Shown in pieces: positions 3,171 to 54,896 of a stretch of 64,000 nt of DNA (within the stretch, counting starts at the first letter, position 1; each line of letters starts with the position of its first letter). A model generated the notes under the pieces. It ran no database searches. It was given only the letters and a program-made list of their open reading frames with translations, and was not told the DNA's origin. Origin of the DNA: Massilia putida. GTDB taxonomy: Bacteria > Pseudomonadota > Gammaproteobacteria > Burkholderiales > Burkholderiaceae_D. The stretch covers positions 248,001-312,000 of the forward strand of contig NZ_CP019038.1 in NCBI RefSeq assembly GCF_001941825.1, written 5' to 3'. Made by a program: the position numbers and the translations under genes.

Positions 3171-3189
3171 AGGCGGGCGTAGTCCTCGT

Positions 3190-3585: not shown

Positions 3586-3606
3586 GATTTTTCTGTCGTC
3601 ATGGAA

Positions 3607-5274: not shown

Positions 5275-5291
5275 GATATCCGAGGAGACCG

Positions 5292-6956: not shown

Positions 6957-7026
6957 AAATAACACGACCGTTCTTTTGCGGGTTATATTGTCGCCACCCT
7001 CAATCACACAACACGCAAGGAGACCC

Positions 7027-9114: not shown

Positions 9115-9183
9115 AGAATACCCTTGCTGCAAGGAGGGTGCGACCCATGCTAGGCTAGCCGTCAACACGACGACCGAGCCGAC

Positions 9184-10407: not shown

Positions 10408-10435
10408 GCCGCGGCGTCGCCTGCGGGTCGGCCGC

Positions 10436-28456: not shown

Positions 28457-29812
28457 TCAGAAAGTGAAGGGCATCCTGACCATCAGCGTGACGTCCGGCG
28501 TGTCGCGTGTGAGGCCGGCGCCGACGGAGACGCTCAGCGTGCGGTTGTTCTTCATCCGGTAGGAGTAGCCCAGCAGGAGGGTGCCGAGCTGCACCCGGAC
28601 CGAGCCGGGGATCACGACGCCGTTCTGGTGCATGCGCCCGACGGAGTTGTGGTCGTAGCCGATGCTGAACGACGCCCGCTCGTTCAGCGCCAGTCCCATG
28701 CCGAAGTTGAAGCCGAACACGTCGCCCGGATCGACCTGCCCCAGAAATTCCCGTCCGCCGTTCAGCACCGTCCGGTAGATGTTGTTGCGCTTGAAGTTCT
28801 TCGTGTAGCTGAAGCCGCCGAAGAAGATCGCGGGGTCGGACGGCAACAGCCAGGTCACGCTCGGCTGGATCGAGTAGAAGCCGGAGCCGGTGGGCAGGTC
28901 GAGCGGCAGGCCGGTGCCCGTCACGTTCTGGCCCACGCAGCGGGTCTGGCAATCGGTGACGACCTGGAACGGGTCGCGGCCCGTGCGTGACTTGAAGCGC
29001 AGGCCGGCGATGTAGTACGGTGTGTCGACGCCGCCGTCGTTCAGCTGGTAGCGCCATCCCAGCTCGATGTCGCCGATGCCCTTGCCGCTCGTCTCGAACG
29101 CGCGCTCGGCCGCCGTGCCGGTGAACAGCTCGCGGCTGACGGTCGAGTCGCTGCGGTAGACGTAGGGGATCTTCGCTTCCAGTTCGAGACGGTTGTCGAA
29201 GCCGTAGCGGAACGTGGCGGTGCCCGTCGTCGTGTTGCGTTTGACCTCGCGCACGTCCAGCAGGCCGATCAGCAGGGCCGGGATCACCGTGTAGCCGACC
29301 AGTGCCACGCGGTTGCTGGACGAATAGCCATACTGGACGGACGGTTCGAACACGAGTTTGCCCCGCGGCGTCAGCACGCCCGGGGTCTCGAAGATCGGCG
29401 CCACTTCCGGTGCGCGCGGCGCGGGCGGACGGCCGACGGCATCGCCGGCGGATGTCTGGCCCGCGTCGGCGAGTGCGCCGCCCGTGCCGCGCAGCGGGGC
29501 CAGGCGGCCCGGATACACGGGTTGCGCGAGCGGAACCGCGGGCGCGGCCTGGACCTGGAGCGGATCCTGCGGCTGCGGCGCCGACAGATTGCCGGTCCCG
29601 CGCATCTTGTCGAGCTGCGCCGGCGCCGCCGCGACGCCGCTCGCGCGCAACTGGCGTTCGAGTTCGTCGACGCGCGCCCGCTGCTCTTCCAGCTGTTGTC
29701 GCATGATCTTGAGCTGCTCGAGGAGGTCAGGACCGGACTGGGCGCCGGCCGGGATGGCCGCCAGGGCCACGCTGACACCAATCACGCTGTACAGCGCTGG
29801 AATTTTTTGCAT
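28457..29812 (-). CDS. Unit A: coiled-coil plus outer-membrane beta-barrel exporter (FapF-like)
   Basis: A 451-residue secreted protein. The signal peptide ends near PAGA (residue 24). Residues about 25-55 form a coiled coil (LLEQLKIMRQQLEEQRARVD). A Pro/Ala-rich linker runs to about 130, then a beta-barrel of alternating strands ends in ...MPFTF, the aromatic C-terminus typical of outer-membrane proteins. A conserved cysteine pair (CQTRC) probably forms a loop disulfide. The coiled coil plus barrel layout matches FapF, the pore that exports Pseudomonas Fap amyloid subunits. It is the last gene of the unit A operon, ended by the terminator at 28396-28424. It is a close paralogue of 35701-36915. 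Confidence 0.8.
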   Translation of the reverse strand: MQKIPALYSVIGVSVALAAIPAGAQSGPDLLEQLKIMRQQLEEQRARVDELERQLRASGVAAAPAQLDKMRGTGNLSAPQPQDPLQVQAAPAVPLAQPVYPGRLAPLRGTGGALADAGQTSAGDAVGRPPAPRAPEVAPIFETPGVLTPRGKLVFEPSVQYGYSSSNRVALVGYTVIPALLIGLLDVREVKRNTTTGTATFRYGFDNRLELEAKIPYVYRSDSTVSRELFTGTAAERAFETSGKGIGDIELGWRYQLNDGGVDTPYYIAGLRFKSRTGRDPFQVVTDCQTRCVGQNVTGTGLPLDLPTGSGFYSIQPSVTWLLPSDPAIFFGGFSYTKNFKRNNIYRTVLNGGREFLGQVDPGDVFGFNFGMGLALNERASFSIGYDHNSVGRMHQNGVVIPGSVRVQLGTLLLGYSYRMKNNRTLSVSVGAGLTRDTPDVTLMVRMPFTF

Positions 29813-29837
29813 AAGTTTTCTCCAGGTTAAAAATCCG

Positions 29838-30341
29838 TCACCTGCCGGTGGCGGCGGTATTGAGCGCGTTCGCCAGGCTGGACTGGAAATTCATGGCTTG
29901 CAGCAGTCCGCGCGCGTTCACGCTTGCATTGATGATGGTCTGGTTGTTGATCAACTGGTTGTTCAGGCTGTTCTGGATGACGGTGCCGCCCAGCGTGGTG
30001 TCGCCCATCTGGACGTTGAACGTGCCGCCGCCATTCTGGATCAGGCGGACCTGATTCGCCGTGTCGGCGGTCAACGAGCTCTGGCCGCTCGTCAGGCGGC
30101 CGAGGTCGCCGAAGTCGAGCTGGCTGCGTTCCGCCACATTGCCATTGATCGTGACGATGCGCTCGATGCCGAGCGACACCGCGAGGCCGTTGTCGGTGAC
30201 GAAACCGCCGCGGTAGGCGTCCAGCTCGCTCGACGCCACGGCGTTGTCGCTGCTGAACGGATTGTCCGGGCCGCCGGCGAAGCCCTGCGTCGCGATCGCG
30301 GCGCTGGCCAGCACGAGGCCGATCTGGACGGGAATGCGCAT
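29838..30341 (-). CDS. Unit A: small secreted protein with RGG site and Gln/Asn motif
   Basis: A 167-residue exported protein. After a signal peptide (ending near GFAG, about residue 24) comes SSELDAYRGGF, in which L at -7 and E at -8 relative to the GG match a double-glycine processing site. A conserved block follows (GLAVSLGIERIVTING). The C-terminal part carries VIQNSLNNQLINNQTIIN, related to the motif of the other small protein of the unit. Start ATG 30341 has AGGAGA just upstream; it begins 11 bp after the C39 peptidase gene. Function unknown; I infer a minor subunit or export adaptor. Confidence 0.75.
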   Translation of the reverse strand: MRIPVQIGLVLASAAIATQGFAGGPDNPFSSDNAVASSELDAYRGGFVTDNGLAVSLGIERIVTINGNVAERSQLDFGDLGRLTSGQSSLTADTANQVRLIQNGGGTFNVQMGDTTLGGTVIQNSLNNQLINNQTIINASVNARGLLQAMNFQSSLANALNTAATGR

Positions 30342-30352
30342 GGGGTCTCCTG

Positions 30353-31042
30353 TCAAAAATCTCCGGGACCGAATTTCGGCAGCGTCGTCATGTCGATCGC
30401 GGTCCGGGTGACGCCCTCGGCCAGCGGCGCGCGCGGTGCGGCCGCCCAGTCGAGTTCGGCATTGAACGAAGGCTTGCCCGGTGCGTCGTGGATCACGAAC
30501 AGCAGCCGGGTCGGCCAGATGGATTCGAAGTGCTCGCGCGTGATCGACCGGGTGCCACTGGACGGATCGCCCAGCAGGATGCGCCCGTCGTCCGCGCCCT
30601 TGATGACGACGAAGTGGTTATAGCCTTTTTCCGAGATCAGCACGATGGCGGGCAGTTTGCTGTCGAACAGTTTCTGCAACGGCACCTGGAAGCCGTCCGC
30701 CTTGAAGCCGATCTTGGCGAGGTAGCGCTGCATGTCGAGCAGCGAAAAGCCTTCGCGACGGATCTTGGCCTGGTCGCCGATCTCCCACATTTCCTTGAAC
30801 GCGTCGGTTTCGCTGACCGGGTGGCCGTAGTGATAGGTCAGCAGCGTCGCCACCGCGGCCGAGCCGCAGCTGAAGTCGTATTGCTGGCGGGTCGTCGAGG
30901 TGAAGCGGAGCTCCCGCATGCTCTTGACCGGCACGTTGAAGCGGGCGCCGCCCGCGATCGGCAGGTCGGCCGCTTGTGCGCAGGCGGCGCCCAGCAAGGT
31001 GCCGAGCAATGAGCACAGGAGGGGCAGGGCGCCGTACTTCAT
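30353..31042 (-). CDS. Unit A: secreted C39 family cysteine peptidase (FapD-like)
   Basis: A 229-residue papain-fold peptidase with a signal peptide (ending near CAQA). The catalytic cysteine and oxyanion glutamine lie in RQQYDFSCGSAAVATLL, the histidine in YNHFVVIKG, and the aspartate in LLGDPSSGTRS, all as in the peptidase C39 domain that cleaves after Gly-Gly. Unlike bacteriocin exporters there is no ABC transporter; the enzyme is a stand-alone periplasmic protein, as FapD is in the Fap system. Its start overlaps the stop of the preceding gene (ATGA). Likely substrates are the two small proteins of the unit, which carry R-G-G sites. Confidence 0.87.
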   Translation of the reverse strand: MKYGALPLLCSLLGTLLGAACAQAADLPIAGGARFNVPVKSMRELRFTSTTRQQYDFSCGSAAVATLLTYHYGHPVSETDAFKEMWEIGDQAKIRREGFSLLDMQRYLAKIGFKADGFQVPLQKLFDSKLPAIVLISEKGYNHFVVIKGADDGRILLGDPSSGTRSITREHFESIWPTRLLFVIHDAPGKPSFNAELDWAAAPRAPLAEGVTRTAIDMTTLPKFGPGDF

Positions 31043-31464
31043 TTGAACTGCAGGTTGACGATGGTGGCGTTCTGGATCAGGACGTTCGCGCCGCTGTTCT
31101 GGATCACCACCGGTATGCCCGACATGTTGGCGAACGCCCCGGCGTCGATCGTGTTCGACCCTGTGACGACGCTTACCGCGCTGTTGCCGGTCACGACGCC
31201 GCTGAGATTCGCGTTGTTATTGGTCGTGAACGTGTCCGTACCGCCGCGCGAATGTTCCAGCTTGCCCAGGTCGGCGGCCGGCCCGAATCCGAGCGCGTCC
31301 GGCTTTGCCGCCTTGTCCGCACCCGTGACCGGCTGGCCGGCCGGCGCGTTGTCCTGGACGGGGACCGCGAGTTCCGGTCCTGCTAGGGCCGCGGATGCGC
31401 AGGCCGCGAGCACAGCGAAGCTGCACACGCGGCGGCTAGCATGACTCTTGAGTGATGACTGCAT
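31039..31464 (-). CDS. Unit A: small secreted protein ending in a Gln/Asn beta-motif
   Basis: A 141-residue exported protein: a signal peptide to about residue 28, a Pro/Ala-rich region, then LGKLEHSRGGT, a candidate C39 cleavage site (L at -7, GG). The last about 60 residues are Asn/Gln/Ser/Val-rich and end VIQNSGANVLIQNATIVN, then LQFK. Alternating hydrophobic and Gln/Asn residues suggest a cross-beta or beta-solenoid fold. The C-terminal half aligns by eye with the conserved ends of the Gly-rich protein encoded just upstream. I infer a structural subunit or nucleator of the same fibre. Confidence 0.75.
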   Translation of the reverse strand: MQSSLKSHASRRVCSFAVLAACASAALAGPELAVPVQDNAPAGQPVTGADKAAKPDALGFGPAADLGKLEHSRGGTDTFTTNNNANLSGVVTGNSAVSVVTGSNTIDAGAFANMSGIPVVIQNSGANVLIQNATIVNLQFK

Positions 31465-31489
31465 TGTCTACCCCCGGTTGCTTCGTAAA

Positions 31490-31515
31490 ACCGCCGTGCC
31501 CGCGGGCACGGCGGT
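31490..31515 (-). promoter_or_regulatory. Unit A: 26-bp perfect palindrome after the Gly-rich gene
   Basis: ACCGCCGTGCCCG followed by its exact complement lies 8 bp past the stop of the Gly-rich gene and before the next gene. Unit B has a near-identical palindrome at the same place. No T-run follows, so I read it as an intercistronic hairpin that raises the level of the major-subunit message over the downstream genes. Confidence 0.65.
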
Positions 31516-31523
31516 ACGCCGCC

Positions 31524-33674
31524 TTACTTGCCGACAGCCAGATTGCTCTGGACGTTCACGCTCTGCTGGATCAGCGAGGAGAAGCCGTTGTTCTGGCTGA
31601 CCACCATCACGCCCGCAGCCGACTGGCCGACACCGCTCATGGTGTTGGACATGTCGAAGGTGCCGGCATTGACGGTGTTCGTGCCGCCGGCGCCGCCGGT
31701 GCCGGCGCCGCCCATGCCGCCGGTACCGATGCCTGCCGTGACGTTGGCGAGAGCGCCGCCGGCGCCGCCGGTGGTCGAGCCGCCGTTGCCGCCATTGCCG
31801 CCGTTGCCGGCCGTTGCGTTACCCACGGTGGCCGCACCGGTCGTCGCCGCACCGCTGGTGGCCGCGCCGGTGGTGGCGCCGCCGCTGGTGGCTGCACCGC
31901 CGGCCGCGCCTGCGCCGCCCGTGTTCGATGCCATACCGCTGGCTGCACCCGCACCGCCCGCTGCGCCGGCACCTGCCGCGCCCGAGCTTGCCGTACCTGC
32001 GGCGCCGGCACCGCCCGCGCCCGAGCTTGCCGTACCTGCCGCACCCGCGCCGCCCGCGCCGCCTGCGCCGCCCGTGTTGGCCGCGCCGCTACCCGCCGTC
32101 GAGGTCAGGGCACCGCCGGCACCGCCGGCTGCGCCGGTCGCGGCACCACCTGCTGCGCCGGCACCGCCGGTGTTCGAGGCCATGGCGCCCGCGCCGCCAG
32201 CACCGCCAGCCGCGCCGGCCGCACCCGAGCCGCCTGCACCGCCTGCCGCGCCGGCCGCACCCGAACCGCCCGCGCCGCCAGCCGCACCGGCGGCGCCAGC
32301 GCCGCCGGCGCCGCCAGTGCCGAGGCCGGCGGTCGAGGTCGAGCCGGCGCCCGTCGTCGCGCCGCTCGTGGCCGTCGACGTGCCCGCGTTGGCGCTGCCG
32401 CTGCCGCTGAGGCCACCGGCACCGGACGTGGCCGTGTGGGTGCCGTTGCTGTCCGAGCTGCCGGCGGTCGGGCTGGTCGCCGACGAGCTGCCACCGGTAC
32501 CTGCGCCGGCCAGGCCGCCTGCGCCGCCAAAGCCGCCGGCGCCGCCCGCTGCACCGGCACCGCCCGCACCGCCGGCCGCACCCGCTGCACCCGCGCCGCC
32601 TGCGCCGCCGGCCGCACCCGCGCCGCCTGCGCCACCGGTGGCTGCACCCGTGCCGCCGCCCATGCCGCCCATGCCGGCGGTGGTGGGGCCGCTGGCGCCG
32701 CCGTTACCGCCGGTCGTGGCGCCCGTGGCGCCGCCGTTGCCGCCCGAAGCCAGGCCGCCTGCGCCGCCGGCCGCGCCCGCACCGCCCGCTGCGGTCGCGC
32801 CACCGCTCAAGCCGCCTGCGCCGCCTGCGGCGCTGGCCGTGCCGGTGGAGCCGCCGAAGCCGCCTGCGGCGCCCGCGCCGCCGGCACCACTCGACGCACC
32901 CGAGGCAATGCCGCCCGCGCCGCCCGCGCCGGCGGTCGCGCCGCCGGTGGTTGCCGCACCGGCGCTGGCGGCGCCGGTGGTGGCGGCGCCTGCGCTGGCG
33001 CTGCCGTTGGTGGCCGTACCGCCCGCGGCGCCCGCGGCGCCGTGTGCACTGCCGGAGCCGCCGCCCGCGCCGGTGCTGGCCGTGACGCTGCCGCCCGTGC
33101 CTGCAGCGCCGGCGCCGGCCGTACCGGCAGCGCCGTTGGCGCCACCGCTATTGGTGGCCACGTTGCCGATGCCCGAGATCGTGTTGCCGGAGACGCTGCC
33201 GCTCAGGTTCGCGGTGGCGTTGGCCGTCGAGTTGTTGAAGCTGTTCGAGAAGGTCGACGTGGCCGTGCCGCCATTGTTGGCCGCGACGCCGCCGACGGCG
33301 GATGCGGTTGCATCGCCGGAGCTGCGGTTGCTGTTGTCCGTGCTCGTGGTGGTATTCGTGGTGGTACTCGTGGTCGTATTGGTGCTGCGGTTGCTGCTGT
33401 CGTGGGTGCTGTTGTCCGTGTTCGTGGTCGTGCTGACGCTGCGGTTGCTGCTGTCGTGGGTGCTGTTGTCCGTGTTCGTCGTATTCGTCGTGTTGTTCGT
33501 CGTCGCGGTGCTGTTATTCGTGCTGCGGTTGCTGTTGTCGTGCGTGCTGTTGTCCGTCGTACGGGTCGTGGTCTGCGTGGCCGTGCTGCCGCCGCCCGCG
33601 CTGTTCGTATCCTGGGCTTGTGCGCTCAACGAGAAAGCCAGCGAAATTGCCGTCACGAGCAAGGTCTTGTTCAT
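31524..33674 (-). CDS. Unit A: large secreted Gly/Ala-rich repeat protein (putative major fibre subunit)
   Basis: A 716-residue protein. A signal peptide (cleavage after SAQA, residue 20) is followed by a Thr/Asn/Ser-rich region with repeats of DNSTHDSSNRS (about 21-135). Next comes a conserved LSGSVSGNTISGIGN block (about 157-171), then about 490 residues of GGAGGAGAAGGAG-type repeats with almost no charge and no Cys. A conserved C-terminal block (about 664-716) contains NTVNAGTF and QSAAGVMVVSQN. ATG 33674 follows GGGGAA. It resembles mycobacterial PGRS sequences only in composition. A sigma-54 promoter lies 64 bp upstream. I infer a surface fibre or matrix protein; no enzyme motif is present. 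Confidence 0.82.
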   Translation of the reverse strand: MNKTLLVTAISLAFSLSAQAQDTNSAGGGSTATQTTTRTTDNSTHDNSNRSTNNSTATTNNTTNTTNTDNSTHDSSNRSVSTTTNTDNSTHDSSNRSTNTTTSTTTNTTTSTDNSNRSSGDATASAVGGVAANNGGTATSTFSNSFNNSTANATANLSGSVSGNTISGIGNVATNSGGANGAAGTAGAGAAGTGGSVTASTGAGGGSGSAHGAAGAAGGTATNGSASAGAATTGAASAGAATTGGATAGAGGAGGIASGASSGAGGAGAAGGFGGSTGTASAAGGAGGLSGGATAAGGAGAAGGAGGLASGGNGGATGATTGGNGGASGPTTAGMGGMGGGTGAATGGAGGAGAAGGAGGAGAAGAAGGAGGAGAAGGAGGFGGAGGLAGAGTGGSSSATSPTAGSSDSNGTHTATSGAGGLSGSGSANAGTSTATSGATTGAGSTSTAGLGTGGAGGAGAAGAAGGAGGSGAAGAAGGAGGSGAAGAAGGAGGAGAMASNTGGAGAAGGAATGAAGGAGGALTSTAGSGAANTGGAGGAGGAGAAGTASSGAGGAGAAGTASSGAAGAGAAGGAGAASGMASNTGGAGAAGGAATSGGATTGAATSGAATTGAATVGNATAGNGGNGGNGGSTTGGAGGALANVTAGIGTGGMGGAGTGGAGGTNTVNAGTFDMSNTMSGVGQSAAGVMVVSQNNGFSSLIQQSVNVQSNLAVGK
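33385..33560. repeat. Tandem coding repeats in the Thr/Asn/Ser region of the unit A Gly-rich gene
   Basis: Copies of a unit of about 40 bp begin at 33385, 33439 and 33523; the first two are nearly identical and 54 bp (18 codons) apart. They encode the repeated DNSTHDSSNRS segment. Such repeats allow length change by recombination or slippage. Confidence 0.7.
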
Positions 33675-33737
33675 TCGAGTTCCCCTCGGGTTTGATGGTT
33701 GGTGATGGGTCGGCTGTAGCGCCGACTTCCATCTCTT

Positions 33738-33753
33738 TGCACTTTCAGTGCCA
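33738..33753 (-). promoter_or_regulatory. Unit A: sigma-54 (RpoN) promoter of the Gly-rich operon
   Basis: On the minus strand the site reads TGGCACTGAAAGTGCA, against the consensus TGGCAC-N5-TTGCA; only one base of the -12 element differs. It is 64 bp from the ATG at 33674, exactly the distance found for the corresponding site of unit B. A sigma-54 activator gene lies directly upstream. Confidence 0.8.
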
Positions 33754-33772
33754 GCCATACTGTCGAGTTCGC

Positions 33773-33785
33773 TAACCCATTGTTT
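33773..33785 (-). promoter_or_regulatory. Unit A: IHF-like site upstream of the sigma-54 promoter
   Basis: The minus strand reads AAACAATGGGTTA, one mismatch from the IHF consensus WATCAA-N4-TTR. It lies 20 bp upstream of the sigma-54 site, as in unit B where the match is perfect. IHF commonly bends DNA to bring a bound activator to sigma-54 polymerase. Confidence 0.6.
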
Positions 33786-33908
33786 TTGTTGACTTTGTGC
33801 GGATTTTCCTACACGGTCGTCAGTGAAAATCCGGCACGATTTACCGAAAATATCGAAAAAGTGTTTCACTTCCGGTACAACTGTGTCCACGCTTGTGCCG
33901 AAACACAC

Positions 33909-33935
33909 AAAAAAAAGTGGACACCTTGTCCACTT
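33909..33935 (-). terminator. Rho-independent terminator after the unit A activator gene
   Basis: A 9-bp perfect stem (AAGTGGACA / TGTCCACTT) with a 3-base loop is followed on the minus strand by a run of eight T. It is 22 bp past the activator stop codon, separating the activator transcript from the sigma-54-driven operon. Confidence 0.85.
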
Positions 33936-33957
33936 CTGCACCACCCCGCGCGCGCGC

Positions 33958-35295
<1,338 letters not shown>

Positions 35296-35700
35296 CCATC
35301 CTCCATCGGGTAATCGGCCGGTCCTCGCTATGGCGGCAGACGAATGGGAGAACCGGCATGTATCTCTTGACAAGTGTAACGGTACGTAACCTCGGCTGCT
35401 GTTCTGTAGCCTGTTAGCAATTCCACACTGTAAGTTAATCTTTGTTTAACATTATGCCGCCCGCAGAAGATTTGTGGCGGACGATAGCGTATCGGCCGTC
35501 GGTTACAATTAGTCACAATCCTGTAACCATTCTTCATAAGGGTCAAGCGAATACGGGTGCCCGTGTGGCTTTTTGCTGATTCGGGCGCGCGAACACCCCA
35601 CCGGTGGGGAATCGCGATGCGCGGAGGGTAGGCAGAAACACGGTGGGGATCGTGCCGGCGATAATGCCGGCACGCCCCGTATTGGAAGACGGCTTTTGCT
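35296..35700. other. Gene-free interval between unit B and unit A
   Basis: 405 bp with no supportable gene. It holds the 3' hairpin of the unit B beta-barrel gene: GTGCCGGC at 35652-35659 and GCCGGCAC at 35666-35673, a perfect stem without a T-run. It also holds the 14-bp palindrome CCCCACCGGTGGGG at 35598-35611. The AT-rich stretch around 35380-35530 should contain the unit A activator promoter, but I cannot assign clear boxes. Confidence 0.6.
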
Positions 35701-36915
35701 TCAGAAAGCGAACGGCACCCGCACGGTCAGCGTGACGTCGGGCGTGTCGCGCGTGAGCCCGGCGCCCACCGACACGTTCACGGTGCGGCCCCGGTCGAGC
35801 CGGTACGATGCGCCGATCAGCAGCGTGCCCAATTGGATGCGCACGGAGCCCGGGATCACCTGGCCGTTCTGGCGCGTACGGTCGACGGCGCTGTGGTCGT
35901 AGCCGATGCTCAGCGACGCCTTGTCGTTCAGGGCGAGCCCCATGCCGAGATTGAATCCGAACACGTCGCCCGCCTTGATCGTGCCCAGCGGCTCGCGTTT
36001 GCCGTCGAGGACGGTGCGGTAGACGTTGCGCCGTTCCGTATTGCGCGTGTAGCTGAAGCTGCCGAAGAACACGGCCGGGTCGGACGGCAGCAGCCACGTC
36101 AGGCTGGGCTGCAGCGAGCGGAACCCGGAACCCGTGGGCAGCGACAGCGGCAGGCCGGTGCCCGTGACGTTCTCGCCCACGCACCGGGTCTGGCAGTCGG
36201 TGACGACCTCGAACGGGTCGCGCCCCGTGCGCGACTTGTAGCGCAGGCCCGCGATCCAGTATGCACGGTCGGGGCCGCCGTCGTTGAGCTGGTAGCGCAT
36301 GGCGGCCTCGACGTCGCCGATCGCCTTGCCGCTCGTGTCGAACGCGCGCTCGGACGCGGTGCCGGTAAAAATTTCCCGGCTGACCGTCGAGTCGGTGCGG
36401 TACACATACGGGATCTTCGCTTCCACTTCCAGGCGGTTGCCGACGCCATAACGGAACGCGGCGGCGGCCGTCGTCGTGTTGCGTTTCACCTCGCGCACGT
36501 CCAGCAGGCCGATCAGCAGCGCGGGGATCACCGTATAGCCGACCAGCGCCACGCGGTTGCTGGACGAGTAGCCGTACTGGACGGACGGCTCGAAGACGAA
36601 GCGCCCGCGCGGCGTCAGCACGCCCGGGCTCTCGAAGAGGGGCGCCACCTCCGGCGCCTTCGCGGGCGCTTGCGGCGCCGGCCCGACCGCGACCGGGGCA
36701 GGGTCGGCGGCGGGCCCCCGCCCGCGCAGGTCGTCCAGGCGGGACGGCGCCGCCCCGAGTTGCCGTTCGAGCGCGTCGATGCGGGCGCGTTGCTGGTCAA
36801 GTTGTTGCCGCATGGCCTGCAGCTGCGTTATCAGATCGGCGCCGGAGTCGGCCGTCGCCGGGGTGCAGGACAGCGCCAGGCCGAGGCTGAGCGCGCCGGG
36901 CAGTATTCGCTTCAT
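35701..36915 (-). CDS. Unit B: coiled-coil plus outer-membrane beta-barrel exporter (FapF-like)
   Basis: A 404-residue paralogue of the unit A barrel protein (28457-29812). Signal peptide to about residue 22 (TPATA), a coiled coil (LITQLQAMRQQLDQQRARID), a shorter Pro/Ala linker, then the barrel with the same CQTRC pair and the aromatic end VRVPFAF. The barrel region is nearly colinear with its paralogue, while the linker is about 40 residues shorter. Start ATG 36915 has GGAGA at the same spacing as the other genes of the unit. An ATG at 36939 overlapping the previous stop is an alternative. Confidence 0.8.
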   Translation of the reverse strand: MKRILPGALSLGLALSCTPATADSGADLITQLQAMRQQLDQQRARIDALERQLGAAPSRLDDLRGRGPAADPAPVAVGPAPQAPAKAPEVAPLFESPGVLTPRGRFVFEPSVQYGYSSSNRVALVGYTVIPALLIGLLDVREVKRNTTTAAAAFRYGVGNRLEVEAKIPYVYRTDSTVSREIFTGTASERAFDTSGKAIGDVEAAMRYQLNDGGPDRAYWIAGLRYKSRTGRDPFEVVTDCQTRCVGENVTGTGLPLSLPTGSGFRSLQPSLTWLLPSDPAVFFGSFSYTRNTERRNVYRTVLDGKREPLGTIKAGDVFGFNLGMGLALNDKASLSIGYDHSAVDRTRQNGQVIPGSVRIQLGTLLIGASYRLDRGRTVNVSVGAGLTRDTPDVTLTVRVPFAF

Positions 36916-36935
36916 GGGGTCTCCGCGGTGGGTCG

Positions 36936-37382
36936 TCATTTGCCGGTGGCGGCCGCGTTGAGCGCGTTCGCCAGCGTCGTCTGGAAATGCATGGCTTGCA
37001 TCAGGCCCTGTGTGCCCACGCTGGCCTGGATGATCGTGGCGGTGCTTATCGTCCGGTCGTTCAGCCCGTTCTGGACGACGGTGCCGCCCGTCAGCTGCGC
37101 CAGCTGGCCGGCCGCCTGCGCGGACAGGTGCGACGTGCCGCCGACGAGCCCGCCGAGGTCGCCCAAGCGCAGTTCGCTGCGCGCGGCGACCTGGCCGTCG
37201 ACCGTCACGATGCGTTCGATGCCCAGGGACACGACGAGCCCGGACGTCGTCGTGAAGCCCCCGCGGCAGCCGTCCAGCACGGCGGGGGCGACGGCAGCGG
37301 AAGGTGTGAACGGCGGCGCAGCCTGCACGCTCGTCCCGGCGAGGGCGAGGGTCAACGTCAAAGGCGTCAAAGATAATCGCAT
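36936..37382 (-). CDS. Unit B: small secreted protein with RGG site and Gln/Asn motif
   Basis: A 148-residue paralogue of 29838-30341. Signal peptide to about residue 22 (SVQA), then VLDGCRGGF (L at -7 from Gly-Gly), the conserved GLVVSLGIERIVT block, and a C-terminal segment GGTVVQNGLNDRTISTATII followed by QAMHFQTTLANALN. It is 10 bp after the C39 gene, with AAGGAGA before the ATG. Inferred to be processed by the adjacent C39 peptidase; function otherwise unknown. Confidence 0.75.
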   Translation of the reverse strand: MRLSLTPLTLTLALAGTSVQAAPPFTPSAAVAPAVLDGCRGGFTTTSGLVVSLGIERIVTVDGQVAARSELRLGDLGGLVGGTSHLSAQAAGQLAQLTGGTVVQNGLNDRTISTATIIQASVGTQGLMQAMHFQTTLANALNAAATGK

Positions 37383-37392
37383 GGGGTCTCCT

Positions 37393-38067
37393 TCAAAAAT
37401 CGCCCGGGCCGAATTTGGGCAGGTCGACGCCGCCTCGCGCCGTCCGCGCCACCGCGTCGGCCAGCGGCGCGTGCGGCGCCGCGCGCCAGTCGTCGGCCAG
37501 GTTGAACATGGGTTGCGTGGGCGCCGTGTGGATCACGAACAGCAGCCGCGTCGGCCACAGGGCTTCGAAACGCTCGCGGGACAGCGAGCGTGTGCCGCTG
37601 GACGGGTCGCCGAGCAGGATGCGGCCATCGGCTGCGCCCTTGATGACGACGAAGTGGTTGTAGCCGGCCTCCGTGATGAGGACGATGGCCGGCAGCCCGG
37701 CCTCCACGAGCTTGTCCAGCGGCAGCCGGAAGCCGTCGGCCTGGAAGCCGATCGACGCGAGGTAGCGCTGCATGTCGAGCAGCGAAAAGCCTTCGCGCCG
37801 GATCTTGGGCTGGTCGCCCTGCGCCCACATGGCGGCGAACACCGTGCTCTCGCTGACGGGGTAGCCGTAGTGATGAGTCAGCAGTGTGGCGAGCGCGGCC
37901 GAGCCGCAGCTGAAGTCGTACTGCTGGCGCAGCGTCGAGGCGAAGCGCAACGTCTTCATGCTGCGCACGGCCACGTTGTATGTGCCGCCGCCCGCGACCG
38001 GAAAGTCGGCCGCGCCGACGGTACCGGCCGCCAGCGCGGTCGCCAGGAAAACAGGCAGGCGTTTCAT
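37393..38067 (-). CDS. Unit B: secreted C39 family cysteine peptidase (FapD-like)
   Basis: A 224-residue paralogue of the unit A peptidase with all catalytic elements: RQQYDFSCGSAALATLL (Gln and Cys), YNHFVVIKG (His) and LLGDPSSGTRS (Asp). A signal peptide ends near VGAA. The start overlaps the stop of the preceding small gene (ATGA). There is no transporter domain, so it acts alone, presumably in the periplasm, on Gly-Gly sites of the co-encoded secreted proteins. Confidence 0.87.
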   Translation of the reverse strand: MKRLPVFLATALAAGTVGAADFPVAGGGTYNVAVRSMKTLRFASTLRQQYDFSCGSAALATLLTHHYGYPVSESTVFAAMWAQGDQPKIRREGFSLLDMQRYLASIGFQADGFRLPLDKLVEAGLPAIVLITEAGYNHFVVIKGAADGRILLGDPSSGTRSLSRERFEALWPTRLLFVIHTAPTQPMFNLADDWRAAPHAPLADAVARTARGGVDLPKFGPGDF

Positions 38068-38444
38068 TTGAACTGCAGGTTGATGATGGTGGCGTTCTGG
38101 ATCAGCACGTTCGCGCCGCTGTTCTGGATCACGACCGGGATGCCGGCCATATTGGCGAACGAGCCGGCATCGATGCTGTTGTTGCCGGTGACGACGTGAA
38201 CGGCCGTGTTGGCGGCCACCGCGCCGTCGATGCGCGCGTCGTTGCGGGTGTCCGTGCCGCCGCGCTGCCGCGCGAGGTCCGCCGGCCCGGGGACCCGCGC
38301 ACCGATCGCATTCTCGGGCCGGAACAGCGCCCGGGCGGCGGCGCGCGTGTCCGCGTCCGGGCCGGCCCACGCCGCCGACGCGACGGATGCCAGCGCGGCC
38401 ATGGCGCACGCGCGCAGGATGATGATGCGAATGAAGGGGTGCAT
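38064..38444 (-). CDS. Unit B: small secreted protein ending in a Gln/Asn beta-motif
   Basis: A 126-residue paralogue of 31039-31464. After a signal peptide (to about residue 26, SAAWA) comes PADLARQRGGT, the candidate C39 site, then a conserved C-terminal half: VVTGNNSIDAGSFANM followed by VIQNSGANVLIQNATIIN. The last about 40 residues are almost identical in the two units while the N-terminal half diverges, which points to selection on the C-terminal motif. ATG 38444 follows GGAG. Confidence 0.75.
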   Translation of the reverse strand: MHPFIRIIILRACAMAALASVASAAWAGPDADTRAAARALFRPENAIGARVPGPADLARQRGGTDTRNDARIDGAVAANTAVHVVTGNNSIDAGSFANMAGIPVVIQNSGANVLIQNATIINLQFK

Positions 38445-38466
38445 GCTCGACTCCGCTCGTGGCAGA

Positions 38467-38492
38467 GCTGCCGTGCCCGCGGGCACGGCAGC
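38467..38492 (-). promoter_or_regulatory. Unit B: 26-bp perfect palindrome after the Gly-rich gene
   Basis: GCTGCCGTGCCCG followed by its complement, 8 bp after the stop of the Gly-rich gene. The central GCCGTGCCCGCGGGCACGGC is identical to the palindrome of unit A, in the same position. Confidence 0.65.
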
Positions 38493-38500
38493 CCCGTCGA

Positions 38501-39847
38501 TCAGTGACCCAGCGCCAGGTTGGCCTGGACGTTCACGCTCTGCTGCACGAGCGACGAGAGACCGGAGTTCTGGCTGATCACCAGCACGCCGGCGGCCGAT
38601 TGGCCCGTGCCGCTCATGTTGTTCGACATGTCGAACGTGCCGGCATGGACGGTGTTCGTGCCGCCGTTGCCGCCGGTGCCGTTGCCGCCCGCGCCGCCGA
38701 CGCCGTAGCCGGCCGTGATCGACGCCAGCGAGCCGCCGGCGCCGCCGGTGTTCGCGCCGCCGCTGCCGCCCTTGCCGCCCGCACCGCCGGTCGCGTCGCC
38801 GACGGTGGCCGGGCCGTTCGAGGCCGCACCCGCCGTCGCGGCGCCGCCATAGGCACCGTCGCCGGCGTAGTTGTTCGCATTGCCGCTGGCACCGCCCTTG
38901 CCGCCCGCGCCGCCATAGCCGCCGCCGCCGCTGGTCGCGGTGCCTGCGCCGCCGCTGCCGCCACCGCCACCCGCGCCGCCAGTGTTCGACGCGCCATTAC
39001 CCGCGGTGCTGGTCAGGGTGCCGCCGTTGCCGGCGTGGCTGCCGCTGGCACCGCCTCCGTAGGCGCCGTTGCCCGCCTTCGTGCTAGCGCTGGCACCGGC
39101 GCCGCCGGCGCCGCCGATGCCGAGGATGCCGTCACCGCCGCTGCCGCCCGCGCCGCCCGTGGCCGGGCCGCCGGTGCCGCCCGATCCGCCGATGCCCCCG
39201 AACGTGCCGCCGCCGGGCCCCCCGTTCGCGCCCGTCTGCGTGCCGCCAGCGCCGCCGTTGCCGCCCGAGGCATTGCCGCCGGCGCCGCCAAGGCCGCCGG
39301 CGCCGCCCGCGGACGCCGCCACGCTCGCGCCGCCCGCAGCGCCTGCGCCGCCTGCGCCGCCTGGGCCGCTGGCGGCACCGGCCGCGATGCCGCCCGAACC
39401 GCCGGCGCCGCCCGTCGCGAAGCCACCGAATGCCGGGCCGTTGCCGGCACTGCCGTTGGTCGCGTTGCCGCCCGCCGCGCCGGCCGCCCCGTTGGCGCCG
39501 GCGGCCGTGCCGCCGAAGCCGCCCACCGCGGTCACCGAGCCGCCGGTGCCGTTGCCGCCGTTGCCGCCCGTACCGGCCGCGCCGTCGGCGCTACCGATGT
39601 TGGCGGCCGAGTTGCCGACACCGAGGATGGTGTTGCCGCTGACGCTGCCGCTCAGCGAGCTGATGGCGTTGGCCGTCGAAATGTTCGTCGTGGTGTTCGT
39701 GGTCGAGGAGAAATGCAGGCTGTCGTCGTTTTGGGTGACGGTCGATGTGGAGTGGTCGTACGTCGTGTTCGTGCTCGTGTTGGGCCCGGCGTATGCGCTC
39801 AGGGAGAAGGCGAGCGACAGGGCGCTGGCAATCAAAGTCTTCTTCAT
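38501..39847 (-). CDS. Unit B: secreted Gly/Ala-rich repeat protein (putative major fibre subunit)
   Basis: A 448-residue paralogue of the unit A Gly-rich protein. Signal peptide to residue 20 (SAYA), a short Thr/Ser/Asn region, the conserved LSGSVSGNTILGVGN block (about 65-79), a Gly/Asn/Ala-rich middle shorter than in unit A, and the conserved C-terminal block (about 397-448: NTVHAGTF, QSAAGVLVISQN, VQQSVNVQANL). Ends are strongly conserved between units while the middle differs in length (about 490 versus 320 residues) and in Asn content. GAGGAAC precedes the ATG. Likely extracellular; no enzymatic motif. Confidence 0.82.
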   Translation of the reverse strand: MKKTLIASALSLAFSLSAYAGPNTSTNTTYDHSTSTVTQNDDSLHFSSTTNTTTNISTANAISSLSGSVSGNTILGVGNSAANIGSADGAAGTGGNGGNGTGGSVTAVGGFGGTAAGANGAAGAAGGNATNGSAGNGPAFGGFATGGAGGSGGIAAGAASGPGGAGGAGAAGGASVAASAGGAGGLGGAGGNASGGNGGAGGTQTGANGGPGGGTFGGIGGSGGTGGPATGGAGGSGGDGILGIGGAGGAGASASTKAGNGAYGGGASGSHAGNGGTLTSTAGNGASNTGGAGGGGGSGGAGTATSGGGGYGGAGGKGGASGNANNYAGDGAYGGAATAGAASNGPATVGDATGGAGGKGGSGGANTGGAGGSLASITAGYGVGGAGGNGTGGNGGTNTVHAGTFDMSNNMSGTGQSAAGVLVISQNSGLSSLVQQSVNVQANLALGH

Positions 39848-39910
39848 TCGGTGTTCCTCTTTGGTTTTGGGTCGGTGACGTGCCGGTGTGTGGACCGGTA
39901 CCCATCCATT

Positions 39911-39926
39911 CGCAGGAACGGTGCCA
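39911..39926 (-). promoter_or_regulatory. Unit B: sigma-54 (RpoN) promoter of the Gly-rich operon
   Basis: The minus strand reads TGGCACCGTTCCTGCG, with a perfect -24 element and CTGC at -12. It is 64 bp upstream of the ATG at 39847, the same distance as in unit A, although the sequence between differs. Confidence 0.78.
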
Positions 39927-39944
39927 GGCCCCGGACTCGCGGCC

Positions 39945-39957
39945 TAAGCCATTGATT
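39945..39957 (-). promoter_or_regulatory. Unit B: IHF-like site upstream of the sigma-54 promoter
   Basis: The minus strand reads AATCAATGGCTTA, a perfect match to WATCAA-N4-TTR. It is 19 bp upstream of the sigma-54 site. The flanking CAACAAAAA is also shared with unit A. Confidence 0.65.
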
Positions 39958-40039
39958 TTTGTTGGGCCTGTAGTAACTTTCTGAAGGGCTCATCGGAATC
40001 CTGGTCAGGGCGGCTGGCGCCGCCTGCCGATAGGCTGTG

Positions 40040-40086
40040 CCTCGTGCGTTACAGGTGCGTCACCCGACCGTTTGCCACGCACGAGG
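40040..40086. promoter_or_regulatory. Unit B: inverted repeat at enhancer distance
   Basis: CCTCGTGCG at 40040-40048 pairs with CGCACGAGG at 40078-40086, centred about 145 bp upstream of the sigma-54 promoter. Between the arms, GTGCGT-pyrimidine-AC is directly repeated. Unit A has a different inverted repeat (GTGTTTC at 33861-33867 and GAAACAC at 33900-33906) centred about 138 bp upstream of its own promoter. These are candidate activator binding sites. Confidence 0.4.
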
Positions 40087-40126
40087 CCGTGTGGACACCG
40101 TCCTGCGCCGGCAGGGGCGCGGGCGC

Positions 40127-41449
40127 TCACCGCTGCATGCCGTGCTTGCTCAGGAGCCGGTACATGGTGGTCCGCGACACGCCCAGGTCGCGCGCGGCGC
40201 GGCTGACGTTCTGCCCGTTGCGCTGGAGGCATTCGCGCAGGGCCAGCCGTTCGGTACGGGCGCGCACGTCGTCGAGGGCGGCCGTCGCGGCGAGCGGCGC
40301 GTCGAGGCCGAGGTCCTGCGGGGTGATCAGGCGCCCGTCCGCCATCACGAGCGCGCGTCGCACCCGGTTGATGAGTTCGCGCACATTGCCCGGCCAGTCA
40401 TGGTCGAGCAGGGCCGCGACGGCGCGGCTGGAAAACCCCGTCAGCCGCGGCGACCGCTCGTCGGCGTACAGGTGGTAGAAGTGCTCCGCCAGCGTGACGA
40501 CGTCGTCGCGCCGTTCGCGCAGCGCCGGCACGGTCACGGGCAGCACGGCGAGCCGGTAGTACAGGTCTTCGCGGAAGGTGCCGGCGGCAACGGCACGCTG
40601 CAGTTGCACGTGCGACGCGGCGATCACGCGCACGTCGACGTGGATGTCGCGCGTGCTGCCCACGCGGCAGATCGTCTTTTCCTGCAAAAAGCGCAGCAGG
40701 TTCGCCTGCAGGTCGCGGGGCAGGTCGCCGATCTCGTCCAGGAATAGCGTGCCGCCGTGCGCCGATTCGATCAGGCCGGCTTTGGCGCGCGTGGCGCCCG
40801 TGAAGGCGCCCCGTTCATGACCGAACAGTTCGGACTGGATCAGGTTGGGCGGGATCGCGCCGCAATTGATCGGCACGAAACGCCGGCTCGCGCGCGGCGA
40901 TTGCGCGTGAATGGACTGGGCCGTCAACTCCTTCCCGCTGCCGCTCTCGCCCCAGATCAGCACGGGCGCGTCGACCCGCGCCACGCGCCCGACCTGCGCG
41001 CGCAGGCGGACCATGGCGTCGGCCCGGCCGACCAGCAGGCTCGCGCCAGGTTCGGCGTCGGCGGGTGTGGCTGGACGGCGCAGCATTGCCCAGCCATGCG
41101 CGTGGCCGAGCGTGTACGCCAGCCGGCGCGGATCGACGGGGTCGGTGTGGTAGTCGCACAAGTGTTCCACGACGAGGTCGCGGCAGGCCCTGTTGTCGAG
41201 GTCGTGCGGGCGGAATACGCCGATCCATTGCGTGTCGCGGTGGCGGCGCAGGAAGCCGTCGAGATCGGTGGTCCGGTGCAGGGCCCGCGCCCGCATCAGG
41301 AGGCCGACCCGGTAGCCGCCGCTGCGCAGCTCGCGTGCCGCATCGCCGAGGCCGGACACGCAACAGAGCTCCCAGTCGCGCATCGCGTCGTTCATGAGCG
41401 CGACGGGATAGGCGTCGTCGGGGGCGATGCAAAGCAGGCGTTTGCGCAT
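40127..41449 (-). CDS. Unit B: sigma-54-dependent transcriptional activator with degenerate receiver
   Basis: A 440-residue paralogue of the unit A activator. The AAA+ domain is intact ([22 protein letters not shown]), as is the Fis-type helix-turn-helix ([20 protein letters not shown], identical to unit A). The receiver-like N-terminus has alanine (A54, in LLMRAR) where unit A has the candidate aspartate, so this protein is unlikely to be phosphorylated there. Because the DNA-binding helices are identical, the two activators may cross-regulate both units. ATG 41449 follows GGAG at good spacing. Confidence 0.9.
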
Positions 41450-52577: not shown

Positions 52578-54896
52578 ATGATTCTTACTACGTACGCCGC
52601 CCGCGATGCGCTGGCGCTGAAAGTCCTGCCCGCATTACTCCTGAGTTGTTTCGCCGCGCAGCCGCTGTTCGCGCAGACGGCCGCGCCTGCTCCCACGGAC
52701 CGCCCGGCGGCGACAGGCGCCGGGGCCGGCGACGGCGTCGCGACCGTGGAAGTGGTCGCGTCTCGTCCGACCAACAAGGTCGACCGCGACGTGTACGATC
52801 TCAAGAACGACATCAGCGTCAGCAATGCGTCCGCCGCCGATATCTTGAACAACGTCCCGTCCGTCACCGTCGACCAGGACGGCAACGTGGCGCTGCGCGG
52901 CAACCAGAACGTGCAGATCATGGTCAACGGCAAGCGCGACGCGCAATTCCAGGGTCAGAACCGCGGCGACGCGTTGAACGCGTTCCCGGCGGAGGCCATC
53001 GAATCCGTCGAAGTGATCAACGTGCCGGGCGCCGAATTCGGCAACGAGGGCGGCAACGGCCCGATCATCAACCTGGTCCTCAAGCGCAACCGCAAGGCCG
53101 GTTCGCGCGCCAATCTCAGCGCCAACAAGGGAACGGAAGGGCGCGGCAACGCCTTCCTCAACGGCGAGCATGCGGAGGGCCCGTATTCAATCAGCGGCAA
53201 CGTCGGCGTGGCCGAGCGGGTGCGCAACAGCGACAGCGAGTCGCGGCGCCAGGACCTCGACCCCGCGACGGGCGCCGTCAGGGACGCGCAGAACACGGTG
53301 GGCAACCGGCAGATCCGCTCGAAGTCGCTGAACATGTCGTCGACGTTCACGTACAACGTCGGCGAACGGGACCAGGCTGGCGCGACGGCCAGCTATTCGC
53401 GGATCAGGAACGAGACGGACGGTACCGCCTCGACGCAGCGCTACGCCGCGGACATGGCGCCGCTGGCCGATTACACGAGCCGCTCGCGCAGCCGGTCGCC
53501 GGCCGAGAACTTCGGCATCGGCGCGTCGTACGACCACAAGAGCGGCGCACCGGGCGAAGACCTCAAGTTCGACCTGCGCTACACGGGCCAGAACAGCAGT
53601 CCCGATTCCGACGTCGTCTACGATTACCGGCTGCGCCCGACGTCGTTCATCGCGAACAGCCGGCGCTCGTCCGACCCGCGCAACCGCATCCTCGACATCT
53701 CCGTCGACTATGAGCGCAATCTGTGGGACACCTGGCACCTGAAGGCCGGGGCCAAGGTCGCGGACAGCAAGAACAGCAACCCCACCGATTACCTCGCCCA
53801 GGACCCCGTGACCGGCGACTACGTGCCGGTGGCGAGCCGCATCAGCGATTTCGAGTCGAACGACCGCAACGCGGCCCTCTACGGCATCCTGAGCACCAAG
53901 CTGTTCACGAACCTCAGCCTGCAGGGCGGCCTGCGCGGCGAGTACACGGCGCTCGACGTGCGCCAGCCGCTGCTGAACGAGGACGACAAGTATCACTACA
54001 TGAACTGGCTGCCGAGCTTTTACGCGACCCGCGACATCGGCAAGGACGGCATGCTGCAGCTGCGCGCGGCGCGGCGCATCGCGCGGCCGAACGAGCGCGA
54101 CCTGAACCCGAACCTCGTCTACCTGAACGACGTCAGCGCGCGCCAGGGCAATCCGCATCTGCAGCCCGTGAACAACGACCTCGTCGAGCTGGCGTAACGC
54201 GACCGCCTCTTCGGCGTCGACAGCAGCTTCGTGCTGTTCAAGCGGCGCGAGTCGCCCGTGATCGGCAACCGCAGTTATGCGCTGGCTTCCGATCCGAACG
54301 TGATCGTCACGTCGCCCATCAACTTCGGCGCCAACGACTCGGTGGGCGTCGACCTGAATTTCAACGTGCGGCAGCTGTTCCTGCCCGGCCTGTCCGCGAA
54401 TCTGGGCGCGACGCTCGCGAACGAACAACGCCAGCGCATCTCCAATTTCACGTCCGGCGCGACGGGCGTGCAATCGAACCACCGGGAAAACGTCAAATTG
54501 CGGCTCGCCTACCAGGTGGGCATGGAAGCGCTGCAGCTGAGCGTGAACCGCAACGGCGCGTCGTTGAACGGGCAGGGCATCAACAGCGCTGTCACGATGA
54601 CGAATTTCACGTGGCGCCACAACATCAGCCAGCGCCTGTCGCTGAACCTGAACGTGAACAACGTGTTCCACACCGGGAATATGGAAAGCGACGTCGAGAA
54701 CGAGGTGCTGCGCCTGCACACGCTGAACGCCGGCCAGCCGCGCGTCGTGCAGATCGGCCTGCGCTATCAATGGGGCGGCGTGACGGGCGACGACCGCATC
54801 CGCAACGGCGGGCGCGGCATGTTCCGCGGCGGCCAGGGCGAGCGGGGCGAAGGTGGCGGCGGCTTCGGCAATCGCGGAGGCGCGGGCGGCTTCTGA
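52578..54896 (+). pseudogene. TonB-dependent outer-membrane receptor with an in-frame stop
   Basis: The intact reading would be 772 residues: signal peptide (LLLSCFAAQPLFAQ), plug domain (SNASAADILNNVPSVTVDQD, VNVPGAEFGNEGG-like ring segment) and a long beta-barrel ending ...RNGGRGMFRGG and a Gly-rich tail. The frame is broken only by TAA at 54195-54197 (GCG TAA CGC), inside a barrel strand. The same frame resumes immediately as RDRLFGVDSSFVLFKR and runs to 54896. A TAC or TAT tyrosine codon is the likely original. It belongs to the outer-membrane beta-barrel/TonB receptor class lacking an obvious substrate. It is unclear whether a shortened protein is made. Confidence 0.75.

Follow-up and report, generated by a model that had tools for sequence, protein, structure and literature searches.

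The secreted C39 peptidase FapD is essential to the Fap amyloid system of Pseudomonas, in which a C38A change abolishes secretion, showing that the catalytic Cys is needed (PMC5557850). The target of FapD was described as unclear and the Fap proteins as having no canonical C39 sequences, while FapE, with its GG/GA motifs, and the linker of the barrel FapF were put forward as possible targets (PMC5557850). The substrate was given as undetermined in 2017 and 2018 (PMC5557850, PMC6173800), and according to a 2025 review FapD is thought to act on the N-terminus of FapE and on the part of FapF that lies in the periplasm (PMC12822426); homologues of fapD and fapF lying together have already been noted in further phyla (PMC6173800). 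The C39 leader consensus is L(-12)xxxE(-8)L(-7)xxxxG(-2)G(-1) (PMC6959990), and leader positions -4, -7 and -12 occupy hydrophobic pockets of the protease (PMC6363468). Here, a 64,000-nucleotide stretch of Massilia putida DNA (contig NZ_CP019038.1, positions 248,001 to 312,000; hereafter the window), from a genome of 7.5 Mb, is analysed with a focus on two adjacent six-gene units on its minus strand, A (28457-35295) and B (35701-41449). Judged from sequence relationships, they belong to a sister branch of Fap and not to Fap itself. Each unit probably forms a complete FapD/FapF-type export and assembly system, in which the C39 peptidase would read RGG leaders and a Gly-rich cargo would reach the surface.

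Two paralogous units of a conserved system

Units A and B have the same gene order, namely activator, Gly-rich secreted protein, small protein 1, C39 peptidase, small protein 2 and coiled-coil barrel (Table 1). All twelve reading frames are open, and paralogy was found in all six gene pairs at 53-75% identity: 75% for the activator, 73% for the barrel, 69% for the peptidase, 61% for small protein 1, 53% for small protein 2, and 68% for the Gly-rich protein over aligned columns that are mostly low-complexity. The coordinates and paralogous pairs bear out an earlier note on this DNA, which had proposed a tandem duplicated six-gene unit of identical order; the start points of small protein 2 A (30341) and Gly-rich A (33674) were corrected.

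Table 1. Positions in the window of the genes, motifs and regulatory features of units A and B
Feature	Positions	Strand	Remarks
Barrel A	28457-29812	-	451 aa; signal peptide, coiled coil, linker, FapF-type barrel; FapF-structure match and tree clade
Barrel A linker motif LAPLRGT (second)	29483-29503	-	
Barrel A linker motif LDKMRGT	29594-29614	-	
Small protein 2 A	29838-30341	-	167 aa; FapE relative by profile comparison
Predicted C39 leader motif LDAYRGG, small protein 2 A	30204-30224	-	residues 40-46
Secreted C39 peptidase A	30353-31042	-	229 aa, FapD-like; C59 H143 D159
Small protein 1 A	31039-31464	-	141 aa; C-terminal QN segment modestly like Fap repeat
Predicted C39 leader motif LEHSRGG, small protein 1 A	31240-31260	-	residues 69-75
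Attenuator-like hairpin, unit A	31491-31514	-	between Gly-rich gene and small protein 1
Gly/Ala-rich secreted protein A	31524-33674	-	716 aa, 30% Gly
Sigma-54 promoter-like site, unit A	33738-33753	-	TGGCACTGAAAGTGCA; about 80 bases before Gly-rich gene
IHF-like site, unit A	33773-33785	-	one mismatch
VpsR-like sigma-54 activator A	33958-35295	-	445 aa, GAFTGA at 217
Barrel B	35701-36915	-	404 aa
Barrel B linker motif LDDLRGR	36718-36738	-	
Small protein 2 B	36936-37382	-	
Predicted leader motif LDGCRGG, small protein 2 B	37257-37277	-	
Secreted C39 peptidase B	37393-38067	-	224 aa; C54 H138 D154
Small protein 1 B	38064-38444	-	
Predicted leader motif LARQRGG, small protein 1 B	38256-38276	-	
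Attenuator-like hairpin, unit B	38467-38492	-	
Gly-rich secreted protein B	38501-39847	-	448 aa, 34% Gly
Sigma-54 promoter-like site, unit B	39911-39926	-	TGGCACCGTTCCTGCG; about 80 bases before Gly-rich gene
IHF consensus site, unit B	39945-39957	-	
VpsR-like sigma-54 activator B	40127-41449	-	440 aa, GAFTGA at 214

The unit is a conserved system present in Alpha-, Beta- and Gammaproteobacteria, and its carriers include Massilia, Janthinobacterium, Pseudoduganella and Variovorax. A scan of named sequences yielded 535 barrel relatives, the best 80 of which lie at 76 distinct loci; C39 was found at 69 of these loci, small protein 2 at 69, small protein 1 at 70, the Gly-rich tail at 69 and the activator at 58. 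Among the 52 loci of this best-80 set that have full flanks, the counts were 51, 51, 52, 52 and 52, respectively, and the complete set of parts was present at 51. The neighbourhood survey thus found the genes together, against the possibility, raised with the earlier claim, that they might not co-occur in other genomes.

In a survey of 300 genomes of the order, 39 had a match to the barrel profile (E 1e-5) and 22 had one to the small protein 2 profile (E 1e-3), all 22 being among the 39; the barrel of G026 is a weak fragment on a different contig. Forty loci were retrieved, leaving out the matches in G026, G073 and G082. At the 24 order loci with a barrel of at least 300 bits, small protein 2 was detected at 23, C39 and small protein 1 at 22 each, the activator at 18 and the Gly-rich tail at 17. 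The misses include contig ends (L023, L037) and an orphan barrel (L015), and the Gly-rich gene of L025 was caught by a single-sequence search and missed by the tail profile. Of 398 genomes surveyed across the phylum, 37 had a barrel match (E 1e-10) and 15 a match to small protein 2 (E 1e-3). In 15 genomes the barrel reached at least 340 bits; small protein 2 appeared in the same search in 14 of them and on closer inspection in the remaining one (G1004). The five structural genes are present in Cupriavidus metallidurans CH34 and in Photobacterium, where two short proteins bear the tail. In Croceicoccus (Alphaproteobacteria) and on a Vibrio plasmid, the small proteins, C39 and the barrel are found, with no match to the Gly-rich tail; the C39 frame of the plasmid is in two pieces, and the Croceicoccus record annotates the locus as C39 family peptidase, transporter and hypothetical proteins. 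As a side observation, the orphan barrel of this family at L015 (genome G056, 9397-10443) stands where neither the peptidase nor the small proteins were found within 19.5 kb.

Relation to Fap and Fil

The barrel profile matched the FapF crystal chains at E 9e-55, and FapF was the only match among PDB sequences at E 0.01 (5o65, 5o67, 5o68). Profile searches showed homology to FapF and FapD yet placed the proteins far below the curated cut-offs: barrel A scored 150.8 bits against the FapF equivalog NF058560 (cut-off 700) and barrel B 140 bits in the genome search, and the C39 peptidases scored 138.9 (unit A) and 135.7 bits against the FapD equivalog NF058616 (cut-off 330). The peptidases match both the FapD and FilB models, and the scores for the Fil proteins also fell short, at 127.4 and 133.3 bits for FilB (cut-off 475) and 49.8 for FilC (cut-off 630). 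Membership of the C39 family PF03412 is clear (85.2 and 74.6 bits, cut-off 22), with the catalytic Q/C/H/D kept in both copies (Q53 in A and Q48 in B; the others are in Table 1). No match to DUF6160 or FadL was found among the ten window proteins scanned.

One alternative is that the units are divergent Fap amyloid operons, FapB-F without FapA, with the Gly-rich protein as FapC. The homology to FapF, FapD and FapE, the similar gene order and the shared type of activator would all agree with this, and absence of fapA is given as the commonest Fap variant (PMC6173800); indeed, neither unit contains an extra gene for FapA. On the other hand, 60 barrels of this system form a clade (100/98) in a barrel tree of 75 rows, whereas the eight Fap barrels form another (98/90). 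Moreover, the FapD and FapF scores are those given above, the FapB and FapE models do not match the window's small proteins, and the Gly-rich tail compares with the Fap repeat no better than shuffled controls. One genome, G268, carries both this system and a Fap-type locus within 20 kb (L031). The divergent-operon alternative appears unlikely, and a sister branch of Fap is preferred. The earlier note had likewise called the system Fap-related but distinct and kept in two diverged copies, which the FapF-structure match, sub-cut-off scores, separate clade and co-occurrence support. Its view that dedicated VpsR-like activators set the system apart did not hold, because activators matching the same profile occur at many Fap-type loci.

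Other loci of the survey are Fap-type, as judged by eye from FapB-/FapC-like repeats and FapE. The curated FapD cut-off was passed by no genome of the class survey; it was passed by L166, L173 and L168, the FapF cut-off by L166 and L173 (L168 just below), and those for FapE and FapB by L166. Seven rows of the barrel tree were labelled Fil, two of which (L013 and L050) fall elsewhere on long branches. The genome of the window has two more peptidase-barrel loci. The first, L012 (C3:5366000-5384000), is Fil-like: at 2442-11702, five secreted-looking proteins in a row are followed by a C39 peptidase, a barrel and a FadL-type protein, with flagellar-looking genes adjoining, and the first protein is above the DUF6160 cut-off, the other one tested being just below. 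The second, L013 (C3:2096000-2114000), is minimal and has, at 8552-10341, C39, a barrel and a small CCCPP protein with an LDEVVAG motif directly after a uvrB-like gene.

The small proteins and a predicted C39 leader

Profile comparison identifies small protein 2 as a relative of FapE: the alignment scored 46.9 (hhalign), compared with a maximum of 18.5 in 60 column-shuffled controls and 10.3 for the reversed profile, and spans the RG motif. Small protein 1 is perhaps FapB-like. It shares a C-terminal QN segment with the Gly-rich tail (34.4 vs 18.5 when shuffled) and likewise with small protein 2 (36.1 vs 22.2).

Both small proteins carry a highly conserved motif. Small protein 2 shows L/M/I-xxxRGG at 91 of 92 loci, the exception being a 67-residue fragment (L031), and small protein 1 shows L/M-xxx(R/T/S)G(G/K/R/Q/A) at 91 of 92, of which 90 were placed by script and one (L126, LDDLRGG) was added. 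In 70 dereplicated small proteins 2, position -12 is V, L, A or I (mostly V) and -7 is L in all, with F at P'1 in 91%; position -12 took no part in selecting the motif, and the GG is there by selection. In 66 dereplicated small proteins 1, -12 is V, A, L or I in 86%, -3 is R in 86% and -1 is G in 77%, otherwise R, K, Q or A. Seven columns are invariant among 55 small proteins 2, four of them being the L, R, G and G of the motif, although these proteins were drawn from the 90 of 92 that have motif and start. Hydrophobic -12, L at -7 and GG at -2/-1, which define double-glycine leaders, are thus present in the small proteins. In the AlphaFold2 model of small protein 2 (mean pLDDT 69), a short helix at residues 37-44 lies directly ahead of GG 45-46.

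The RGG of both small proteins is best read, from these conservation patterns, as part of a C39 leader of the double-glycine type that follows a Sec signal and has the pattern hydrophobic(-12)..L(-7)xxxRGG. The earlier note had stated that the RGG-containing small proteins do not match Fap; the RGG is real, and the mismatch does not extend to small protein 2, the FapE relative.

FapE has a comparable motif. In 22 dereplicated sequences, -12 is L, V or I, -7 is L or M, -3 is R or T, -2 is G and -1 is R or K, followed by Y or F. The pattern (L/M)xxx(R/T)G(K/R)(Y/F) was found at all 35 Fap-type loci with FapD, where FapE had been located by position in nine cases (profile-confirmed), by profile in 11 and by motif search beside FapD in 15; the last 15 are not independent support, because the motif search itself found them, and their adjoining FapD scores of 197-284 bits are under the cut-off. 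Neither FapE nor FapD was found in the available stretches of L041 and L043, which have the barrel only and are outside the 35 because FapD is missing there. The NCBIfam FapE model (cut-off 250) recognises all 20 FapE of the alignment at E 0.001, the top one with 70.8 bits, and FapE of L166 reaches 345.5 bits. Leader-like motifs were also seen at a similar position in FilA of L165 (LSAATGQ) and in a protein of L012 (LSSVSGR). The comparison predicts that FapD would cut FapE after RG(K/R), at the place homologous to RGG; because the sister system keeps a plain RGG there, an exact site can be pointed to, which in Pseudomonas-type FapE would follow residue 40 (L166).

The barrel linker may be a further target. 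Among 113 barrels over 300 bits, the linker could be delimited by script in 78, and 59 of these contain LxxxRG, compared with a shuffled mean of 6.3 and maximum of 10, a comparison that overstates independence because related sequences share the motif by descent. It was absent from all nine Fap-type linkers delimited likewise (shuffled mean 0.2). After dereplication it is present in 43 of 58 linkers, with T at -1 in 70% and G next in 81%. The C39 peptidase would probably cut here as well.

A second alternative is that RGG is a conserved docking or folding element and not a cleavage site, the peptidase acting on the barrel linker or as a chaperone. The GK/GR of FapE at the corresponding place and the LxxxRG, usually RGT, of many barrel linkers would suit such an element, and both cleavage of FapF (PMC5557850) and a chaperone role (PMC6173800) have been raised. 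However, the spacing to hydrophobic -12 and Leu -7 fits the C39 leader consensus, the motif sits between the Sec signal and the mature part, and FapD needs its catalytic Cys (PMC5557850), all of which make the docking or folding role doubtful and favour a cleaved leader. Small secreted proteins with GG leaders beside a C39 peptidase might also recall antimicrobial or signalling peptides, but this is very improbable, as the units leave no gene for an ABC exporter or immunity protein, the proteins have Sec signals, a FapF-type barrel belongs to each unit, and the Gly-rich partner (tail profile) is present at 52 of 52 full-flank loci.

Proposed operation, history and comparison with known systems

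The period of three in the Gly of the Gly-rich protein is evident from a lag-3 autocorrelation of 0.25-0.27 (shuffle standard deviation 0.05). A polyglycine-II bundle might account for this period, but AlphaFold2 gives no structure. A leader in this protein was rejected, L/M/I-xxx-RG(G/K/R) occurring in 1 of 82. At L085, L086, L088, L112 and L022, two Gly-rich genes stand in a row before small protein 1.

With regard to regulation, activator A matches VpsR (PF20161) and sigma-54 domains, and GAFTGA is intact in both activators. A sigma-54 site agreeing with the consensus in 9 or more of its 12 letters was found in 65 of 69 upstream regions of related loci before dereplication (single-base shuffles: mean 3.6, maximum 8) and in 41 of 45 after it, the window's two having been included ahead of that step. 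It lies 73-97 bases ahead of most Gly-rich genes and farther upstream in L018 and L101. The sigma-54 control proposed earlier is upheld by these conserved promoter-like sites and by the GAFTGA motifs. Among 41 dereplicated regions, 30 contain an IHF-like site that deviates from the consensus at no more than one position (shuffled mean 2.4, maximum 6). Moreover, of the 82 intergenic regions behind the Gly-rich gene (not dereplicated), 69 contain a hairpin with arms of at least 8 (shuffled 5.9), a pattern compatible with the Gly-rich protein as the major product. The palindrome GTGGACA-AGG-TGTCCAC (33934-33909) was rejected as an activator site; a T run comes next, so it is likely the terminator of the activator gene.

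From the computed gene set, homologies, conserved motifs, promoter, hairpin and phylogeny, we infer a course of cleavage, ordered steps and fibre formation. The sigma-54 activator would switch on the operon, which begins with the Gly-rich secreted protein, probably the product made in the largest amount, and the hairpin 3' of its gene would lower expression of the downstream genes. All products would reach the periplasm by Sec, where the free C39 peptidase would recognise a helical double-glycine-type leader of small proteins 1 and 2, behind the signal peptide (hydrophobic -12, Leu -7, RGG at -3 to -1), and cut after GG, and probably also at LxxxRG in the barrel linker. Cleavage would prepare the small subunits for use, small protein 2 being FapE-like and small protein 1 perhaps FapB-like, and would license the coiled-coil barrel or gate it. 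The Gly-rich protein might then pass unfolded through the barrel and, at the surface, be nucleated and become anchored there as a fibre or matrix protein. The 'fibre or adhesin' of the earlier note is carried on in this conditional form.

Several points weigh against the proposal. The curated FapE model NF058559 (cut-off 250) matches only 1 of 55 small proteins 2 (E 0.048) and none of the window's, so that the FapE link rests on profile-profile comparison. The similarity of small protein 1 to the Fap repeat is modest (22.1 vs a shuffled maximum of 15.1, with a repeat set of 10 segments), and that of the Gly-rich tail is within the controls (16.1 vs 16.6), so a Fap repeat there was set aside. 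Small protein 1 has TGK, SGK or TGQ at some loci and no match at L027; FapE carries GK/GR and not GG; and Glu at -8, part of the consensus, is rare (10% in small protein 2, 12% in small protein 1, 50% in FapE). The Gly-rich centre is not universal, with Gly below 20% in 5 of 82 proteins (the window's two, at 30-34%, included). Structure prediction gave the short helix before GG and no confident fold for either small protein 2, whose model had no match at E 0.001 or better in a fold search of the PDB, or Gly-rich B, which was unstructured (pLDDT 37.5). FapE peptides were absent in mass spectrometry for the first ~70 residues, ~30 past the predicted site (PMC5557850). This gap is wider than the prediction needs, because the predicted site follows residue 40. 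Trypsin also cuts at the RG(K/R) site of FapE. Cleavage or fibre data for this system were not found in the literature searched, whose titles and abstract openings (subscription papers, preprints and supplements being outside the scope) hold no account of the system or of the RGK/RGR site in FapE.

It is quite possible, and is suggested here tentatively, that Fap, Fil and this system branched from a single secretion pathway. Its free C39 peptidase in the periplasm would recognise one type of leader, hydrophobic(-12)..L(-7)xxx(R/T/S)G(G/K/R/Q/T), in Sec-exported clients: E-/B-type subunits and the barrel linker here, FapE in Fap and FilA-like proteins in Fil. In the present branch one protease would then mature the cargo and cut the coiled coil off the pore. 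If true, this would answer what FapD cuts and make it testable by single-residue changes. The RGG sister system suggests that periplasmic C39 proteases, a class that has received little study, share a recognition rule, and it adds a conserved exporter of Gly-rich surface proteins. What is new is the site, its leader logic and the cargo; FapE and the FapF linker had been proposed as FapD targets before (PMC5557850), and fapD-fapF pairs in further phyla had been noted (PMC6173800).

As to history, the window holds an old second unit. In both the barrel tree and a peptidase-plus-barrel tree of 27 rows, A and B fall in two well supported groups, and the nearest named barrels to the window's are from Massilia. 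Group B comprises five genomes, the window's and four named Massilia (L054, L055, L057, L058), all of which also have A. In L056, L059 and L060, from the closest relatives lacking the pair, A stands alone and has the neighbours of the window's pair, a U32 peptidase at one end and a hydroxylase at the other. The hydroxylase is also the neighbour in L054, L055 and L058, whose stretches end inside unit B. The genomic place is conserved, because single-A loci and pair loci have matching neighbours. Unit B arose either by tandem duplication followed by divergence or by being acquired a second time. That A and B are non-sister copies was considered and not adopted: B clusters with L014 and L063 in the barrel tree (92/90), yet A and B together are not rejected (p-AU 0.128). 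Separately, in one gammaproteobacterial genome (L181, 3921-8367) small protein 1, C39 and small protein 2 are doubled as near-identical tandem copies. Elsewhere in the window, a tandem pair of similar secreted proteins at 477-2144 is taken to be PpiC/SurA-like peptidyl-prolyl isomerases, and two successive open reading frames at 52578-54896 presumably resemble parts of a TonB-dependent receptor.

Compared with known systems, the units share with Fap a FapF-type coiled-coil barrel, a secreted C39 peptidase, a FapE-like small protein with a leader-like motif, a comparable gene order and, at many loci, a similar sigma-54 activator close by. They differ in the absence of FapA, in a Gly-rich main protein without detectable FapC repeats, in RGG where FapE has RGK/RGR, in a leader also on small protein 1, and in their own barrel clade, with a linker motif in 59 of 78 barrels compared with none of nine FapF tested. 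The Acinetobacter Fil system (FilA-F, a 'putative pilus') likewise has a C39 (FilB) and barrel (FilC) pair, and its FilA (DUF6160) bears a leader-like LSAATGQ recognised in this analysis; unlike the present units, it has DUF6160 and FadL-type partners, and profiles found no Gly-rich or FapE-like protein there. Peptidase-containing ABC transporters with double-glycine leaders share the C39 fold and leader positions -12, -7, -4 and -2, whereas the peptidase here is a free periplasmic one behind Sec, with no ABC transporter in the units.

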